Assembly (NCBI RefSeq): GCF_000214825.1
Contig: NC_015581.1
Span: 1,302,001 to 1,366,000, forward strand
Direction: 5' to 3'
DNA length: 64,000 nt
Source: Thiomicrospira cyclica ALM1
Lineage (GTDB): Bacteria; Pseudomonadota; Gammaproteobacteria; Thiomicrospirales; Thiomicrospiraceae
Below, in pieces: positions 23,818-31,717 of this stretch; within the stretch, counting starts at the first letter, position 1, and every line of letters begins with the position of its first letter. Made by a program: the position numbers and the translations under genes. The notes beneath the pieces were generated by a model, which was not told the DNA's origin, ran no database searches, and worked only from the letters and a program-made list of their open reading frames with translations.

Positions 23818-25338
23818 TTAATCCTCCCCAATAACCGTAGCTCGCAATAAGACAACCATCTCAGTCTTACTTTGCGTGGCTTGCCTAAAACCAAATAATC
23901 GCGCTAGGGGACTTTGATGACGGGCAAGACCATACAAGCCCGCTTGATTTTCATCTTGACGCTGCTGAATCAAGCCGCCAATAATGACCGTTTCTTGATT
24001 TTCTAAGCGCAACAAGGTTTCCATTTCACGCTCTTGGATAAGCGGAACAAAATTTTGAACGCCTACTGCCGCTAAATCTGGGTTGGGGTCTAATACCTGA
24101 CCAATGATACGCGTCACGCTTGGCCGAACGTTTAATAACACCTCTTGCTGCTCTGTGATCATCGGCTGAACATTTAAAATCAACCCCACCGGTACCGAAT
24201 TTAAATTAGATCCGTAGGTTACTTCGGTCACATTTTGATTTGTGATACGAACGACGCCTATCGTAAAATACACAAAATTATCAACAACTTTTAACATGGC
24301 TGGCTGATTATTGAGCGCCTTAACACGAGGACTGGACAAAACGCTAACTTGACCAAAATTTTCTAACCAGCGCAGGCCTAACATAACATCCAAACCCACA
24401 CTGCCTAGACGAGCACTAAATGTACGATCATGCCCCATTTGCGTTAAACCACTGCGATTAATAAACCCATCTAAATTCCAATCAATTCCGGTTTGATAGG
24501 CTTCTGACAACGTTACCTCAGCAATGACCGCTTCAATTAGGACTTGTCGACGCGTCCTCGTTTGAAGTTCCGATAACCAATGCGCGACCTGCTGCTGTTG
24601 ATGATAGCTTGCTAGTACCATCACCAGACCTGCCTCGGGTTGTGTCATGACACGTTGAGCAGGCAAAAGTTCGGTTGATAAGGGTTCACTAACAAGAATT
24701 TGGGCGATATTCGCGGTCAAACTTCCCCAGATATTCGATTCACTTACCACTTGCATCCTCGATTGACTGGAGTTTTGTGTGGCGGCAATAGTGCTGATTT
24801 GTCCAATATTGAGATTAGTCACCAAATCATCCAACTTTGAACGTTCTAGATTGAGTAGGTCAACGGGATAAGCTTGCCAATACAACTGATCAGGACGCGC
24901 AACAATTCGACGTTGTTGTAATAAAACCTGTAAACCACTGGCCACGCCTACTCGGTGCAATAGTTCATTAAGCGTGACATCATCTGCTCTAATCGTAATG
25001 GTTGGCGCTTGATTAGGCCAAAGCTCCAATTCCTTATCAGCCATCCAGGCCAATTGCTGTAACACGTCAGACACGGGAGTTTCAATAAGGTGCAAGCTAT
25101 ACCTAGCTGGTTTTAATGATTCTTGTAACTCTGCTTTTACTGAGGAGTCTGAGAATTGTTCGGATTCAGAGTCTGGTGATGTCGTAATTGAGCCAGATGA
25201 ATAATCCGGTACTTGAATAGGTAGTTCATAATCGGCATCAAAACTGTAATTAGGTGTTGTATTACAACCGACAAGCAAGACCATATTAAAAACGGCCAGG
25301 GTCAATGTCATGACATATCGCGAAGATAAAGATCTCAT
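23818..25338 (-). CDS. outer-membrane secretin, lipoprotein (MshL/PilQ family)
   Basis: A 506-residue secretin that forms the outer-membrane channel. The N-terminal signal ends in a lipobox (VLLVG^CNTT). A short STN/N0-like domain (about 85-160) and an N1-like domain precede the secretin core (about 250-500), with QVLIEAVIAEVTLSEAYQTG, VPVGLILNVQPMI and ETVIIGGLIQQRQ motifs. The ATG at 25338 is chosen over upstream TTG codons. It heads the operon and lies 79 bp behind hemN, with a long hairpin over its ribosome binding site (25350-25390). Confidence 0.92.
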   Translation of the reverse strand: MRSLSSRYVMTLTLAVFNMVLLVGCNTTPNYSFDADYELPIQVPDYSSGSITTSPDSESEQFSDSSVKAELQESLKPARYSLHLIETPVSDVLQQLAWMADKELELWPNQAPTITIRADDVTLNELLHRVGVASGLQVLLQQRRIVARPDQLYWQAYPVDLLNLERSKLDDLVTNLNIGQISTIAATQNSSQSRMQVVSESNIWGSLTANIAQILVSEPLSTELLPAQRVMTQPEAGLVMVLASYHQQQQVAHWLSELQTRTRRQVLIEAVIAEVTLSEAYQTGIDWNLDGFINRSGLTQMGHDRTFSARLGSVGLDVMLGLRWLENFGQVSVLSSPRVKALNNQPAMLKVVDNFVYFTIGVVRITNQNVTEVTYGSNLNSVPVGLILNVQPMITEQQEVLLNVRPSVTRIIGQVLDPNPDLAAVGVQNFVPLIQEREMETLLRLENQETVIIGGLIQQRQDENQAGLYGLARHQSPLARLFGFRQATQSKTEMVVLLRATVIGED

Positions 25339-25349
25339 CAACAACAAAA

Positions 25350-25390
25350 CTCCGTATATTTACGTAATAATTATACGCAATTATACGGAG
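25350..25390 (-). promoter_or_regulatory. long hairpin covering the secretin ribosome binding site
   Basis: On the minus strand CTCCGTATA pairs with TATACGGAG (9 bp), and inside it TTGCGTA pairs with TACGTAA (one G-U), separated by a symmetric A-A mismatch, with a 7-nt loop. The 3' arm contains GGAG, the only candidate Shine-Dalgarno for the secretin ATG. TTTTG follows. It could be an attenuator or terminator after hemN, a translational switch, or a DNA operator; the arms also contain two TATAAT sequences. Confidence 0.55.
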
Positions 25391-25416
25391 ACTTTAAAAT
25401 TATTTTCAGTGTTTTT

Positions 25417-26805
25417 CTAAATGACTTTCGAAAAACGATTGGTTGTACCGGGTTTGATATAAGCATCAAACGCCATACAAATATTACGAATCAGTAAACG
25501 ACCTTTGGCGGTAATGTAGATGTCGTTCTCATCCAGCGTTAACAAACCGTCTTCTACAAACTGTTGCACCGCGACTAATTCTTTAGCAAAGTATTCATCA
25601 AACCGAATGCCCCATTGCTGATTCACCGTTGCAAAATTCAAATGAAAATGGCTGATTAAACGCGTAATCACGTTACGACGTAACTCGTCGTCTTCGGTCA
25701 GATGCACACCACGGAAAATCGCCAATTTGCCACTATCAATCGCTGAGTAATAGCTTTCTAAATCCTTACGGTTTTGAGAATAGGTATTGTCCACCAGCCC
25801 AATCGAAGTAGCACCCATGCCCACCAAATCGCAATCGGCGTGGGTTGAATAACCTTGAAAATTGCGATAGAGAGTTTCATTACGTTGCGCTACCGCCAGT
25901 TCGTCGTCCGGCTTGGCAAAGTGATCCATGCCGATATACACATAACCGGCTTGCAATAAACGCTCGGTGGTGGCCTGTAAAATCGCTAGTTTTTGATCGG
26001 GTGACGGCATATCTTCTTCACGCATTTTTTTCTGCGTTGGGAACATACTCGGCATATGTGCATAGTTAAAAATTGAGAAGCGATCCGGCTCGACTTCTAG
26101 CAACTTATCCAAGGTTTGTAAAAAACTGGCTTGGGTTTGGAACGGCAAACCGTAAATCAAATCGACGTTTACCGACAAAAAGCCTTCGGCACGCGCCGCA
26201 TTCAGCACCGTAAAAGTTTCTGCTTCCGATTGAATACGATTAACTGCTTTTTGCACTTTCGGGTCAAAATCCTGCACGCCCAAACTCATGCGGTTAAAAC
26301 CGAGTTCACGCAACAACTTCACCGTTTCAGCAGTCGCTTCACGCGGATCGATTTCAATCGAATATTCGCCGCTGTCGTCATCATATAAATTGAAACATTC
26401 GCGCGTTTTCGCCATCAATTGACGCATTTCATCGTGATTAATAAAGGTCGGTGTACCGCCGCCCCAATGCAACTGCTCTACTTTACGATTCGGATCAAAC
26501 AACTTCGCTTGCAGTTCGATTTCTTTAAACAGACGTTCTAAATAAGGCGTGGTTTTTTTGCGGTCACGAGTCCATTCTTTATTGCAGGCGCAATAAAAAC
26601 AAATGGTGTCGCAGAACGGAATATGAAAATACAACGACAAGCCGCGACCGGACACATTAGAGCGCGCAGCGGCGGCTTCATAATCGGCAATACCGAATAA
26701 CTCGTCAAACTGCACTGCCGTCGGATAAGAGGTATAACGCGGCCCAGTTTGGTTATAACGTTTAATTAAGTCCGCATCAAATTGAATTCCTTGTTCCAAG
26801 CTCAT
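25417..26805 (-). CDS. hemN: oxygen-independent coproporphyrinogen III oxidase HemN
   Basis: A 462-residue radical SAM enzyme converting coproporphyrinogen III to protoporphyrinogen IX without oxygen. The N-terminus has GPRYTSYPTAVQF, and the [4Fe-4S] cluster motif is FHIPFCDTICFYCACNK (CxxxCxxC). GGGTPTF and the C-terminal HemN domain with IRNICMAFDAY are typical of true HemN. It lies between rlmKL and the secretin operon on the same strand. AGGGAG precedes the ATG. Confidence 0.95.
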   Translation of the reverse strand: MSLEQGIQFDADLIKRYNQTGPRYTSYPTAVQFDELFGIADYEAAAARSNVSGRGLSLYFHIPFCDTICFYCACNKEWTRDRKKTTPYLERLFKEIELQAKLFDPNRKVEQLHWGGGTPTFINHDEMRQLMAKTRECFNLYDDDSGEYSIEIDPREATAETVKLLRELGFNRMSLGVQDFDPKVQKAVNRIQSEAETFTVLNAARAEGFLSVNVDLIYGLPFQTQASFLQTLDKLLEVEPDRFSIFNYAHMPSMFPTQKKMREEDMPSPDQKLAILQATTERLLQAGYVYIGMDHFAKPDDELAVAQRNETLYRNFQGYSTHADCDLVGMGATSIGLVDNTYSQNRKDLESYYSAIDSGKLAIFRGVHLTEDDELRRNVITRLISHFHLNFATVNQQWGIRFDEYFAKELVAVQQFVEDGLLTLDENDIYITAKGRLLIRNICMAFDAYIKPGTTNRFSKVI

Positions 26806-26873
26806 CTCCCTCGTAGTCTTATGTCATTATTTTGGCTTTTGCGAGACTTGTTCATAACTTTGACAATCCTTGC

Positions 26874-26948
26874 TTAAGTCAACTGCCAAACAAGCAAACC
26901 CAATAACATTATGGTAATACCTGTTACTAATACTAAGCTTACAAACAT
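26874..26948 (-). CDS. candidate 24-residue membrane microprotein
   Basis: A 24-codon frame from ATG 26948, starting 2 bp after the rlmKL stop and preceded by AGGGG at good spacing. The product, MFVSLVLVTGITIMLLGLLV followed by WQLT, is almost one entire membrane helix. It lies between rlmKL and hemN, same strand. No family recognised; short length means chance cannot be excluded. Confidence 0.35.
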   Translation of the reverse strand: MFVSLVLVTGITIMLLGLLVWQLT

Positions 26949-26950
26949 AT

Positions 26951-29266
26951 CTACCCCTGACGTTTTTCCAACAACCAGGCCTGGTGAATTTTGGGGCTGC
27001 GTTTAAAGTCTTCTGGCAGGGTTTTACGGGTAATATCCTCGATCTGCCAAGCGGATAACGCATCCTTATCTAGTTTAAACTTCTGCATATTATTGGAAAA
27101 CACCAAAGTGCCACCAGGCGCGAGTAACGCCCCCGCCTGTTCAATCAGTTCAACATGATCACGCTGAATATCCAGTACGCCTTCCATCCGTTTCGAGGTT
27201 GAAAACGACGGTGGATCTAAAAAAATCACATCAAACGGGTCCATTTTGGGTGGATTTTTTAACCAAGCCACCACATCTTCTTGCAACAGCTCATGACGAC
27301 GTAAATCGATATTATTGGTCATAAAATTATGCTTAGCCCAATAGAGATAGGTTTTTGACATATCCACACTCAGCGAGTTATTCGCCCCCGCCACCGCGGC
27401 CTGTGCCGTAGCGGTGGCGGTGTAGCAGAATAGGTTCAACAGGTCTTTGCCCCTAGATAGCTTCGCGACCAACGCGCGCACACCACGGTGATCTAAAAAC
27501 AAGCCAGTATCCAAATAATCGGTAAAGTTCACCCGCACCTTGGTGTTGTTTTCGATGATGGTAAAGTAATCTTTACGCTCCTCGAGCTTCTCATATTGGC
27601 TGGCGCCTTTTTGCTTCTGACGCATTTTATACACCACCCGCTCAGCCGCAATGCCAAATACCTCGGGCAGTACCGCCATCGCTTCATACAGACGTCGTTT
27701 CGCTTTGGCCGCATTCACCGTTTTCGGCGGTGCATATTCATTCACCACCAACCACTCGCCCGCTTCAAGGGTATGATAATAATCAATCGCTAAGGCATAT
27801 TCCGGCATATCCGCATCATAGACTCGATAGGCCAATACCTTATTACGATCAGCCCACTTGCGCAGCGTTTTTAGGTTTTTGCGCAAGCGATTGGCAAACA
27901 TCTGCGCACCCTCGGTCTGCGCCAAATCCGCCATCGAGCTTTCTACTTCCGCCGCTAAATCCGCCCCCGCTTTTAACGCCGGTTGACGGAAAAATTCTTC
28001 TTCAACCTCAAAGCGGAACAACTTACATTCCATCGCACCATTAAAAAACGCATGATCACGTTTGGCCTTTAAGCCAAGATACAAGCCAAGTTCTTTGTTA
28101 CAGGTGAGTACCGCCGCCTGCCAACCGACAAAATGACGTTTTAAGGTTTCGCCTATTTGAACATACAAGGCTTTGACTTCATCTTCTTCACCCAAGCGTT
28201 CGCCATAAGGTGGATTGGTCACTACCAGGCCTTTTCGACCTGCTACGACCTGCAATTCCTGCGTTGGGCGCTGCTCGCCATCCTCATGTACTTCCTTGTA
28301 CACTCCGGTGTCTGCGCTGCGTCCGCCTTGAACTTGAAGGTTTCGCGACGGTCGCTCTTCATTATCAAACCAATTTTCACCCAGTTTAGCGACGCACACT
28401 TTAATCACATCGGCATAACCGGCTTGTTGAATTGCTTGACGCGCAATTTTGACCGCGCCACCATGCGCATCCGAGCCGTAAATCGGAGGCATCTTCGCTA
28501 AACCCGCTAACTCGCGCGCCTGCGCATCCTTAACCAGCTCATCCCAAACATTACTTTGATGGCCTAACCAAGATAAAAAGCCCATATCATGGGACTTTGC
28601 CAGGCCTGGTGCGGTGTCCGATGCCATCATCGCCGCCTCAATCAGAAAGGTGCCCGAGCCACACATCGGATCAAATAACGGTGCGCCCTGCTCAGCCAGC
28701 TGCGGCCAACCGGCGCGAATTAAAATCGCCGCCGCCACGTTTTCTTTAAGCGGCGCTTTCACCTGCTGACCTTCACGATATCCCCGTTGATGCAGGCTAT
28801 GCCCCGACAAATCCAAACTCAGGATAAATTGATTACGATTTAAATGACCATGCAACTGAATATCGGGATAGTCACGATCGACCGCTGGGCGAGTACCAGT
28901 AGTATCACGGAAATAATCAACAATCGCATCTTTGATTTTCAACGCGCCAAAATGGGTATGCTCAATGCCCATCCCTTTACCGGTAAACGAAATCGCAAAA
29001 CTATGCTCTTCGGTCATGTGACGTGCCCAATCGAGCGAGCGCACATTCGCATACAAGTCTTCTTGGGTATCCAGCTCGGATTCTAACAAAACCAAATACA
29101 CATGATTCGCCAACCGTGACCATAAACAGGCGCGATAGCCATCAACCAAGCCGCCTTCAAAACTCACGCCACGCGGTTGCGCTTTCACCGCTTGTGCCCC
29201 TAGTGCTTGCAACTCTTCTTTTAATAGCTCGGACAGACCGTTTGGCGCTGTAGCAAAAAACTTCAT
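26951..29266 (-). CDS. rlmL: bifunctional 23S rRNA methyltransferase RlmKL
   Basis: A 771-residue fusion. The N-terminal THUMP domain (about 45-155) and RlmL methyltransferase (m2G2445; LFDPMCGSGTFLIEAAMMA and NPPYGERLGEE) are followed by the RlmK methyltransferase (m7G2069; LNLFCYTATATAQAAVAGA and VIFLDPPSFSTSK). A stretch of about 40 residues between NWFDN and KGLVVTNPPYGER has no counterpart in E. coli RlmL and coincides with a palindromic DNA element (28236-28354). The reading frame stays open through it. Divergent from mltB. Confidence 0.95.
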   Translation of the reverse strand: MKFFATAPNGLSELLKEELQALGAQAVKAQPRGVSFEGGLVDGYRACLWSRLANHVYLVLLESELDTQEDLYANVRSLDWARHMTEEHSFAISFTGKGMGIEHTHFGALKIKDAIVDYFRDTTGTRPAVDRDYPDIQLHGHLNRNQFILSLDLSGHSLHQRGYREGQQVKAPLKENVAAAILIRAGWPQLAEQGAPLFDPMCGSGTFLIEAAMMASDTAPGLAKSHDMGFLSWLGHQSNVWDELVKDAQARELAGLAKMPPIYGSDAHGGAVKIARQAIQQAGYADVIKVCVAKLGENWFDNEERPSRNLQVQGGRSADTGVYKEVHEDGEQRPTQELQVVAGRKGLVVTNPPYGERLGEEDEVKALYVQIGETLKRHFVGWQAAVLTCNKELGLYLGLKAKRDHAFFNGAMECKLFRFEVEEEFFRQPALKAGADLAAEVESSMADLAQTEGAQMFANRLRKNLKTLRKWADRNKVLAYRVYDADMPEYALAIDYYHTLEAGEWLVVNEYAPPKTVNAAKAKRRLYEAMAVLPEVFGIAAERVVYKMRQKQKGASQYEKLEERKDYFTIIENNTKVRVNFTDYLDTGLFLDHRGVRALVAKLSRGKDLLNLFCYTATATAQAAVAGANNSLSVDMSKTYLYWAKHNFMTNNIDLRRHELLQEDVVAWLKNPPKMDPFDVIFLDPPSFSTSKRMEGVLDIQRDHVELIEQAGALLAPGGTLVFSNNMQKFKLDKDALSAWQIEDITRKTLPEDFKRSPKIHQAWLLEKRQG
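26975..26984. repeat. iterated palindrome CCAGGCCTGG
   Basis: Full copy near the 3' end of rlmKL, Gln-Ala-Trp frame, within ACCAGGCCTGGT. Confidence 0.7.
28236..28354. repeat. palindromic element inserted in frame in rlmKL
   Basis: About 119 bp bounded by CGACC (28236-28240) and GGTCG (28350-28354), with imperfectly complementary arms. A central hairpin TGTAC-TTCCTT-GTACA (28287-28302) sits exactly at the midpoint. It encodes about 40 extra residues in RlmKL, running from RPSRNLQVQGGR to RPTQELQVVAGR. Resembles in principle the in-frame palindromic elements of Rickettsia; family not identified. Confidence 0.55.
28600..28609. repeat. iterated palindrome CCAGGCCTGG
   Basis: Full copy in rlmKL, in the other frame (Pro-Gly-Leu). 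Confidence 0.7.
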
Positions 29267-29370
29267 TTAACCTTCTTAATAATATGGGAATTCAACTTAT
29301 TACAATTTTACCCTTTTTAGCGCGCGCTTTCGTTAGAATAAGCAAAATAGTTAGTGCGACATAGATAGGA

Positions 29371-30600
29371 ATGAACATGATTAAACTTCGGTTACTTCAG
29401 CGGTATTTAATGAGCTTGTGCTGTGTTTTGCCCGGATATGCCTTGGCTGAGTCAAATGAGAACTTTCAACGTTGGGTGCAAAACTTTAAACCTCAAGCCA
29501 TCCAAGCGGGCATTAGTGAACCCACTTTCAACCTGGCCTTTGCGAATGTAAAACTGAATGAACGTGTGCTAGAGCTCGACCGCCGTCAACCCGAATTTAC
29601 CCGAACCTTTTGGCAATATATCGACATGACGGTAACGCCGCTGCGTATTGAACGTGGACGGTTATTACGCCAGCAACACGCACCACTACTAACCCAGGTC
29701 AGTGAACGCTATGGTGTTGATGATGCCTACCTATTATCTTTTTGGGCGATGGAAACTAATTTTGGCAGTTTTACGGGTAATACCCCTACCATTGAAGCCC
29801 TTGCCACCCTGGCCTATGACCCACGTCGCAGTGCATTTTTTACTGAACAACTCCTGTATGCTCTGCGTATTTTAGAAGAAGGTCATCTAAACCTTGAGCA
29901 AATGAAAGGCTCCTGGGCTGGCGCACTTGGGCACACGCAATTTATGCCGTCAAACTATATTCATTACACGGTTGATGGCGATGGCAGTGGTCGCAAAGAT
30001 TTATTTAACAGCCTAGACGATGTGTTTCATTCTGCCGGGCATTTTTTAAATCGTTTGGGCTGGCGTGCTGGCCAAGATTGGGGCTATGAAGTACGCTTAC
30101 CGAAAGGATTCAACTACGCACTGGCGGATGGCCGGACGCAACGTAGCATCGACGATTGGGCTGCAATGGGTATTACCACGGCACAGGGCGAGCGTTTAAA
30201 TCAACAAACCAATCCAGACACAGCGGCTGCCTTACTACTACCCAGCGACTATCGAGGTCCCGCTTTTTTAGTGTTTCACAATTTCAATGTCATTAAACGC
30301 TGGAATAACTCCAATAATTACGCCCTGGCTGTCGGCTTAATTGCCGATCAAATTCGCCAACAACCAGGCCTGGTAGCCAAAGCGCCTGCGGATGATGCCG
30401 CTATGACTCGAGACGAGGTCATTGCACTGCAAAATCACCTCAATCGTTTAGGCTTTGATGTCGGTCGAGCCGATGGCATTGCCGGTCAACGCACCCGGCA
30501 AGGCCTGCGCGAATTTCAAGTCAAACAGGGTATGCCTGCAGATGGCTTTCCTAGCCCAAGAATGCTTAAGGTGTTACAACAAATACCTACCAGCCGTTAA
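29371..30600 (+). CDS. mltB: lytic murein transglycosylase B with peptidoglycan-binding domain
   Basis: A 409-residue periplasmic lytic transglycosylase cleaving the MurNAc-GlcNAc bond. A signal peptide (about 1-25, CCVLPGYALAES) precedes the SLT_2 domain, with the catalytic Glu in FWAMETNFGSFTGNTPT and the motif GSWAGALGHTQFMPSNY. A peptidoglycan-binding domain 1 ends the chain (about 345-405, LNRLGFDVGRADGIAGQRTR). There is no lipobox, so it is a soluble form. A second ATG at 29377 has better spacing from AGGA and may be the true start. Confidence 0.9.
   Translation: MNMIKLRLLQRYLMSLCCVLPGYALAESNENFQRWVQNFKPQAIQAGISEPTFNLAFANVKLNERVLELDRRQPEFTRTFWQYIDMTVTPLRIERGRLLRQQHAPLLTQVSERYGVDDAYLLSFWAMETNFGSFTGNTPTIEALATLAYDPRRSAFFTEQLLYALRILEEGHLNLEQMKGSWAGALGHTQFMPSNYIHYTVDGDGSGRKDLFNSLDDVFHSAGHFLNRLGWRAGQDWGYEVRLPKGFNYALADGRTQRSIDDWAAMGITTAQGERLNQQTNPDTAAALLLPSDYRGPAFLVFHNFNVIKRWNNSNNYALAVGLIADQIRQQPGLVAKAPADDAAMTRDEVIALQNHLNRLGFDVGRADGIAGQRTRQGLREFQVKQGMPADGFPSPRMLKVLQQIPTSR
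30364..30373. repeat. iterated palindrome CCAGGCCTGG
   Basis: Full copy in mltB (plus-strand gene), Pro-Gly-Leu frame, within ACCAGGCCTGGT. Confidence 0.7.
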
Positions 30601-30622
30601 CCGCAATTTTTAAGAGGCCACC

Positions 30623-31717
30623 ATGCAAACCAAAACTCTAGCATCCAGTCTATTAGTCGTTAGTTTCACTCTTTTTGGCTGCTCAAACGAGCAACCAGCC
30701 AGCGCTGAAAACACCAGCACGGAATCAGTAACTAGCCTAGCGGTCTCAACCAGCAGCGTGGCAAGGGTTGATAGCGAACAGTGGCAAGCATTAGGGCAAT
30801 TATTACCCGCTCAGCAGATTCCATTAAGCATGGAGGTTACTGGTCGGGTCACAGAGCGACTGGTAAAACGCGGCGATCACGTCACAACAGGCCAGTTATT
30901 AATTCGCCTAGACGACCAAGACTTTCAGCTTAAACGTAACGCATTGGATGCCAGCATTAGCCAGCTAGAAGCGGATTTACAATTAGCCAAAATTGACCGC
31001 GACCGCTTAAACAGCCTGCTCCAACGCGAACTGATCTCGCAACAAGACCTAGACCAAATCACCACTCGAATTAAAAGTTTAGATGCCCAGCTGACCCGTT
31101 TAGCCCAAGAACGCGCATTGGCTAATCGCCAAGTCGACTATACCCAACTCTTGGCACCGGTGACGGGTCGAATCAATCAAGTCCTAGTAGAACCCGGTCA
31201 ACAGGTTCAAGCGGGCCAGATTATTCTTGAAGTCATTCCAACCGACGACCTTATCATCTCAACACAATTGCCAGCGAGCCGAATGGCCAACCTACCGCAA
31301 CAAGCCACCCTTGTCACGCCCTCGCAGAGCTTTGGGCTAGCTCTTTATGAACAAGAGCCCCTCGCCGATCAAAACACAGGGTTATTTCAGGTGCGCTACC
31401 AACTCGCGCCAGATCAGGCGCACCTGGCTGCCGAGTTAGCAGGCCTGCCTCTGGGAGAACGCTATCCAGTGCAATTTCAAAAACCCCTGGCGGTCGCATT
31501 ACAAAAAATACCGGCTAGCGCGCTGATTGATCTCGGTCAAGGCCCCCATGTCTGGACAATTGACAATGACCGAGCGCAGTTAACCCCTGTTAACCTGGTT
31601 CGACTCCATAACGGTGCGGCACTGATTGAACCAAGCCTGGTAATTGATGCCCTTATCGTGCGTCACGGCGTGCACCGTTTGCAACCCAATCAAGCGGTTC
31701 GCATCCTCAATGATTAA
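30623..31717 (+). CDS. RND efflux periplasmic adaptor lipoprotein
   Basis: A 364-residue membrane fusion protein. The signal peptide ends in a lipobox (TLFG^CSNE). Biotinyl-lipoyl half motifs (MEVTGRVTERLVKRGDHVTTGQLLIRLDD and LLAPVTGRINQVLVEPGQQV, quoted in part) flank a coiled-coil hairpin (about 115-175). It links an inner-membrane RND pump to an outer-membrane TolC-like channel, which is not encoded here. The RND permease gene follows after 14 bp. AAGAGG precedes the ATG. Confidence 0.9.
   Translation: MQTKTLASSLLVVSFTLFGCSNEQPASAENTSTESVTSLAVSTSSVARVDSEQWQALGQLLPAQQIPLSMEVTGRVTERLVKRGDHVTTGQLLIRLDDQDFQLKRNALDASISQLEADLQLAKIDRDRLNSLLQRELISQQDLDQITTRIKSLDAQLTRLAQERALANRQVDYTQLLAPVTGRINQVLVEPGQQVQAGQIILEVIPTDDLIISTQLPASRMANLPQQATLVTPSQSFGLALYEQEPLADQNTGLFQVRYQLAPDQAHLAAELAGLPLGERYPVQFQKPLAVALQKIPASALIDLGQGPHVWTIDNDRAQLTPVNLVRLHNGAALIEPSLVIDALIVRHGVHRLQPNQAVRILND

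Follow-up and report, generated by a model that had tools for sequence, protein, structure and literature searches.

In the portions of the literature available for comparison, coding palindromes of the RPE type are elements of Rickettsia (PMC3733652, PMC5896051, PMC2229807, PMC10969869, PMC5656822, PMC7519539, PMC2635572, PMC2267715). A review gives RPEs a size of 105-146 bp, against 108 bp for the element described here. Short palindromic repeats that lie mostly between genes, with some in frame inside genes, are described in the available parts of PMC3733652, PMC5896051, PMC2229807 and PMC10969869. The MITE-like repeats (ERIC, Correia/NEMIS, QMITE2, GTAG/CGTC REPs) resemble the family presented here in being short, mostly intergenic palindromes that are sometimes found in frame; compared by description, they differ from it in that here the apex and internal-loop motifs are fixed, the stems vary and no target-site duplication was found. 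Among the literature matches listed, from a coverage that mostly leaves out subscription journals, we found no RPE1-like elements in the host's group.

Here we analysed 64,000 nucleotides of the Thiomicrospira cyclica ALM1 genome (the window), in which a sequence-only reading had pointed to a palindromic element of about 119 bp, adding about 40 residues to rlmKL at 28236-28354. Our analysis leads us to hold with considerable confidence that the rlmKL insert is a degraded copy of a non-autonomous, RPE1-type palindromic repeat, which inserted into a variable surface loop of RlmL without breaking the reading frame. The relevant features, in window positions, are the following; G002 is the congener with the nearest insert-free allele.

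26951-29266, minus strand: rlmKL (23S rRNA methyltransferase RlmK/RlmL), 771 aa, intact
28236-28250: host flank wrongly counted into the reported element; the G002 allele, though free of the insert, has it too with two changes
28251-28358, minus strand: in-frame insert, net 36 codons relative to the G002 allele, edges +/- ~6 nt
28243-28335, minus strand: stretch matching the nucleotide profile of TIGR01045-positive (RPE1) elements; the coding strand is the RPE1 strand
28241-28352, minus strand: match to covariance model R1 (G000:C1:1330241-1330352), the sole match in its own genome
28287-28302: apex hairpin TGTAC-TTCCTT-GTACA; the conserved motif around it is CATGTAC..GTACACTCC (28285-28306, plus strand)
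28286-28327, plus strand: sX9-like stretch, 15.9 bits against a gathering score of 44, E 1.1; sub-threshold, in register with the apex, alone not significant

The host gene encodes a full-length RlmKL equivalog (NF008748, 926.4 bits, profile positions 4-703 of 704), and its frame runs open through the insert, as had been reported. The position just ahead of the NPPY motif was also given correctly, as was the lack of such an insert in E. coli RlmL: between the same two aligned blocks the E. coli protein (3V8V) has 13 residues (287-299) and the window protein 51 (291-341). The CGACC/GGTCG ends and the hairpin at the midpoint of the reported interval are present too. While the in-frame insert itself stands, its edges had to be moved to about 28251-28358, with a net gain of 36 codons. 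Because CGACCTGCTACGACC (28236-28250) recurs with two differences in the G002 allele, which has no insert, this stretch belongs to the host; in the remaining congeners the loop at this place is unrelated. We also observed two open frames antisense to rlmKL, at 27730-28044 (+) and 28157-28501 (+), of 104 and 114 aa.

At E<=0.001, 49 of the 57 genomes searched gave a match to the RlmKL protein, some of these being weak paralogue matches only. The insert is missing from seven congeneric orthologues, whose lengths are 730-736 aa (771-735 = 36), an eighth congener (G005) has only an rlmKL fragment, and among 30 aligned RlmKL loci the insert is found in that of the window only. The sequence-only reading had reasoned that its idea would fail if the insert were present in all relatives and had no other copies; instead, the seven congeners are without it and copies exist elsewhere. 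It had also looked to an alignment of orthologues for empty sites and target duplications. The former were found in the seven congeners, whereas comparison of the empty and filled alleles, whose plus-strand host letters agree to 28250 and again from ~28359 when G002 is used, revealed no direct repeat at the rlmKL junctions and hence no target-site duplication. These empty sites suggest that the element entered rlmKL as mobile DNA. Its tolerance there may be explained by a loop that is free to vary, a net length that is a multiple of three and one open frame.

The element had been described as palindromic, with imperfectly complementary arms; in the window copy, palindromy above chance was not confirmed. 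The RNA fold energy is -38.2 against -33.2 +/- 3.4 for shuffled sequences (z -1.45; 18/200 shuffles as good), the DNA fold gives a z of -0.27 with 79/200 shuffles as good, and the arm score of 8.0 lies below the shuffled 99th percentile of 12.0. The arms of this copy are decayed and its own palindromy is not above chance. We therefore call the stretch an element because of its homology and the empty sites, not because of its own arms.

The search for further copies proposed in the sequence-only reading gave nothing in the element's own genome and succeeded in relatives of the same bacterial family, where copies lie mostly between genes. The own genome (1.93 Mb, one contig) holds a single copy; apart from it, the search there returned nothing beyond matches of 17 and 14 bp. 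A nucleotide search of 57 genomes returned four further places at E<1e-3: the best is in another genus (G016; 84% identity over 80 bp, E 2.1e-18), followed by G024 (81%, E 2.9e-13), G009 (74%, E 9.7e-5) and a second place in G016 (E 4.9e-4). The best G016 homologue and those of G024 and G009 all proved to lie between ORFs when their context was read. The apex pattern CATGTAC-N2..10-GTACACTCC occurs at 29 places in 16 of the 62 genomes of the host's bacterial family (reversed pattern, 0), at 52 places in 20 of 276 genomes of the class by our own count of the table (reversed pattern, 4), and public genomes contain it in 116 or more stretches. Arm complementarity exceeds the shuffled 99th percentile in 144 of the 189 apex copies with enough flank, the other 45, the window copy included, lying below it. 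The mean arm score of the 189 is 18.7, compared with 7.2 for shuffled arms and 7.2 for arms taken from different copies. Since arms match within copies and not between them, the stems differ from copy to copy yet pair within each copy.

An alignment of 20 copies from the bacterial family, that of the window among them, keeps AGGCG, GGAGTGTAC, GTACATGA, GAGC/GAAG and CAAC in most rows, with G016b, for example, departing at AGGCG and CAAC. The RNAalifold structure of these copies has 13 pairs, eight of them changed on both sides, and 98.5% of cells are paired, values favoured by the structure having been taken from the tested alignment itself. None of 500 shuffles reached any of five covariation measures, and slid versions pair 15-54%. 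The covariance model built from the same 20 copies (R1, for which the window copy is thus a training sequence) gives hits at E<=0.1 in 48 of the bacterial family's 60 genomes. Congeners have one match each in G001, G002, G003, G004 and G007, three in G005 and none in G006 and G008. A near-constant short R1 match of 92-95 nt was seen in L391 (G016:C1:576244-576338) and in G023, G029, G031, G033, G035, G067, G069, G071 and G082, perhaps one orthologous copy kept by descent. Rfam searches at gathering score gave no match in window positions 25000-31000; in 20 loci they gave a C4 in L205 and a tRNA in L211, both located away from the elements and set aside.

The RPE1 protein model, TIGR01045, has a curated cut-off of 30 bits and gave no match to a 75-aa fragment of the window protein at E<=10; we therefore call the insert RPE1-like rather than a certified RPE1. 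The same model scores the in-frame copy carried by a G226 cheW-like protein at 37.3-40.1 bits, above the cut-off. Of 276 genomes of the class it matched 17 at E<=0.1, three above the cut-off and most others weak, and the control genome of Corynebacterium glutamicum gave a match too, below the cut-off. A second draw of 397 genomes yielded none at E<=0.001; its controls gave no match either, which makes that draw uninformative. A tblastn search found no RPE1 match in plasmids. Among eight genomes holding public apex loci, four have TIGR01045 matches above the cut-off, and the other four, namely the genome with the hemC copy described below and three apex carriers, have no match. Counts were 16 in a Rickettsiaceae MAG (up to 56 bits), 115 in a Holosporales MAG, 19 in a Legionellales MAG and 12 in a Legionella MAG. 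The Holosporales MAG, Cd354_bin5 (L152, L180, L202), is the densest carrier encountered here, its matches falling within ~0.9 Mb, several of them at contig ends. When 15 of the TIGR01045 class hits were examined, six proved to contain the exact apex, centrally or nearly so, and several others, L308 and L310 among them, have it with a single change; the 15 were drawn from the best 17, leaving out G173 and G127, neither of whose genomes has an exact apex.

Profiles built from RPE1-positive elements recover the window copy. A nucleotide HMM of 33 such elements, which left out two of 30 RPE1 loci (L330 and L338) whose apex the script did not find, matches it at 28335-28243 with E 1.9e-7 and 30.5 bits; this is the only window match at E<=1, and the reversed database gave a best E of 2. 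Two other loci, L393 and L397, gave no match to the nucleotide HMM. With the arms shuffled and the apex kept, the maximum in 500 trials was 17.4 bits against 30.8 for the window copy, and with the apex masked the window copy gets no score from the nucleotide profile. A peptide profile of 32 translations in the RPE1-core frame scores the insert at 17.9 bits, against a maximum of 6.7 in 1000 shuffles; the insert is read in the RPE1 frame (..TGVY..VHED..), in frame within a conserved gene. RPE1 has the ends AGACCTCTTTC..GAAAGAGGTCT, and the profile match spans positions 30-122 of ~148 only. By eye only, one end of the window copy bears a partial GACC..GCGAAACC likeness.

The insert has in common with RPE1 (TIGR01045) its apex motif, conserved core, reading frame and in-frame lodging in conserved protein genes. 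It is unlike RPE1 in that the window has no TIGR01045 match, the genome holds one copy and the host is not a member of the Rickettsiales, while copies of the family at large have variable stems and no common AGACCTCTTTC ends. The suggested likeness in kind to the translatable palindromes of Rickettsia is supported, since the RPE1-positive profile matches beyond the apex and the RPE1 frame is the one read.

In-frame copies also occur in recG (G019), hemC (a Legionellaceae MAG), hemF (G231 and G109, at the same site), yoaA (G109) and the cheW-like gene of G226. A screen of the 189 copies for those lying in genes gave 15 rows, of which seven copies in six genes were kept, and in all six genes the RPE1 strand is the coding strand. 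We set aside L107 (two rows) and L124, whose apex letters seem to belong to PALP and SusD proteins of the usual kind and whose arm scores are 8.0 and 7.5, as well as L108, L141, L170 and L196, whose ORFs have no domain over the element, that of L108 having a FlgA domain downstream. In L119 a TrkA_C domain starts just past the element; if real, this copy would be an exception to the strand rule. L108, L119, L141 and L170 are open on the other, non-RPE1 strand.

In the host's bacterial family, two of 93 distinct elements lie in recognised genes, rlmKL and recG; the 93 derive from the better-scoring matches (30 search-fetched and 60 chosen stretches), and other recG copies lie outside this set. 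Five of the 93 are ORF candidates, namely rlmKL, recG and the hypothetical L423, L431 and L440, the last three uncounted. Further model matches within recG come from G010, G016, G027, G062, G065 and G071. Comparison of 22 recG loci found a short segment of 32 residues in seven (including G063, G064, G067 and G080), the rest being intermediate or long and one unparsed. Because the recG insert is present in several species, it appears to have been inherited across them. The recG element lies between helicase motifs and in these species (G010, G016, G019, G027, G062, G065 and G071) is in varied states of decay, which offers a ready domestication series.

Between genes, too, an empty site suggests movement. 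At one intergenic site, G016 (L063) has 166 bp where G010 has 23 bp, with flanks 92-93% identical and no direct repeat at the junctions. By eye only, the far end of this insert (L063 in G016, L265 in G010) is complementary to host sequence at the near end (AATAACGC/GCGTTATT), and at the filled rlmKL site (28236-28358) the far end of the insert is likewise complementary to near-end host sequence (CGACC/GGTCG), as if the host flank had been copied in reverse at both filled sites. A different kind of relation is seen at L004 (1485-1600), where the flanks of G016 and G010 are 95.5 and 92.3% identical and the palindromes are differently composed, with a best local identity of 75% over 89 of 116 nt; the G010 palindrome is similar in layout by eye, and the family profile barely detects it (E 0.042). 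Closely related genomes, compared at L004, L271 and L272, thus have palindromes of like layout at a shared intergenic position, within flanks 92-95% identical, but the stem and the apex differ. We considered a transposase between inverted copies and recognised none by eye in the ORF lists of four loci, of which only L128 and L203 span both copies.

The orientation of copies between genes is strongly biased. By simple ORF calls, 74 of 93 placed hits lie between same-direction ORFs, 10 between convergent and one between divergent ORFs, five in ORFs and three at edges. In 71 of the 74 tandem copies, all from the host's bacterial family, the RPE1 strand is opposite to the genes, and the core lies a median of 19 nt beyond the upstream stop. 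Outside the bacterial family the bias is weaker: among palindromic tandem copies, 12 follow it against 6 in the class and 24 against 10 in public genomes, together 36 of 52. The six in-gene cases, all on the RPE1 strand, have a chance probability of 0.031 (two-sided, strands equal) or 0.0013 given the openings, for a small sample from different taxa. The central 108 nt are open on the RPE1 strand in 31 of 90 intergenic copies and on the other strand in 63 of 90 (shuffles, 35%); as the RPE1 strand is less often open, open frames do not explain the reversed orientation within genes. On the sense strand, a run of four T follows the core in 48 of 90 copies (expectation, 24.5), while 37 of 90 have a run of four A at the other end, so that use as a terminator in either direction is possible. 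We infer that the sense hairpin has a role in RNA that is not tolerated in coding regions, and that genes accept only reversed copies. In the sense direction the hairpin would probably act on RNA, through 3'-end formation, processing or stability; in the rlmKL mRNA the insert is complementary to the strand found behind the stop codons of genes, and it may be tolerated for this reason.

A small RNA family starts at the same apex. The model of sX9 (Rfam RF02228), whose standing as an observed transcript we take from its Rfam family label, starts with AUGUAC..GUACACUCC, which is the apex, and then covers the following arm; sX9, which Rfam lists as a small RNA, thus spans one half of the palindrome. 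In 18 apex loci, RF02228 gave 10 matches above its gathering score, in seven loci, six from Xanthomonas (L108, L125, L141, L157, L161 and L175) and one from Herbaspirillum (L208); the other 11 loci have none above that score. Each of the seven positive loci has a match on the non-RPE1 strand whose first base is base two of the exact apex and which extends over the arm that follows; the remaining three matches, of which L125 has two and L157 one, fall where an exact apex is absent. The window copy, at 15.9 bits, falls far from the gathering score of 44 and is not assigned to sX9. An sX9 start at the apex of related copies fits a sense hairpin that acts on RNA.

Could the insert be an ordinary, lineage-specific expansion of the loop, arising by slippage or local duplication, whose palindromic look is accidental? 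Palindromy alone does not exceed chance here and loop length varies among congeners, as such an origin would allow, but it would not explain why an intergenic palindrome of another genus shares 84% of its DNA letters with the insert over 80 bp, nor would it account for an RPE1-seeded HMM match at E 1.9e-7 that none of 500 arm-shuffled controls equalled, and we consider it very improbable. A functional role of the DNA in place, as an antisense or structured RNA in rlmKL, perhaps sX9-like on the plus strand, with the protein merely tolerating it, would draw on the conserved unpaired motifs and covarying stems of the family and on the plus-strand sX9-like stretch in register with the apex, though that stretch reaches only 15.9 bits (E 1.1). 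We judge this role improbable: the window copy has lost most of its pairing, its orientation relative to the gene is opposite to that of 71 of the 74 tandem intergenic copies, and Rfam gave no match at gathering score in 25000-31000.

How the element reached this allele is a separate matter, since its identity would be the same if loop and element had been imported together, by recombination, from another lineage's rlmKL that already carried the insertion. The window loop matches G002 on both sides of the insert, though the whole gene is nearest at the nucleotide level to G004 and G006 (90.7 and 90.1% identity, against 82.6% for G002). A loop like that of G002 in a gene otherwise like those of G004 and G006 suggests local recombination in the loop. 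An import with the element already in place is nonetheless rather unlikely in our estimation, given that no other RlmKL among the 30 aligned loci from the 57-genome search has the insert. Whichever way the allele arose, we favour the reading of the insert as a decayed, non-autonomous repeat of the RPE1 kind.

A wider hypothesis, which in our judgement has an even chance of being right, is that RPE1 is one branch of an old and widespread superfamily of palindromes whose apex and internal-loop motifs are fixed while their complementary stems drift freely. Most copies would work downstream of genes as RNA hairpins locked in one orientation, and cleavage or a start at the apex would yield sX9-like small RNAs. 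Copies inserted in reverse within genes would be silent as RNA; their translation would add new segments to proteins, and these would persist through speciation, as in recG and perhaps rlmKL. The presence of RPE1-like DNA in frame in the rlmKL of an unrelated bacterium, together with its orientation-fixed intergenic relatives and with sX9, ties together three things that had been described separately, and it opens hosts outside the Rickettsiales for tests. It also suggests a simple rule for the passage from repeat DNA to protein, in which the reversed copies are the ones that are tolerated.
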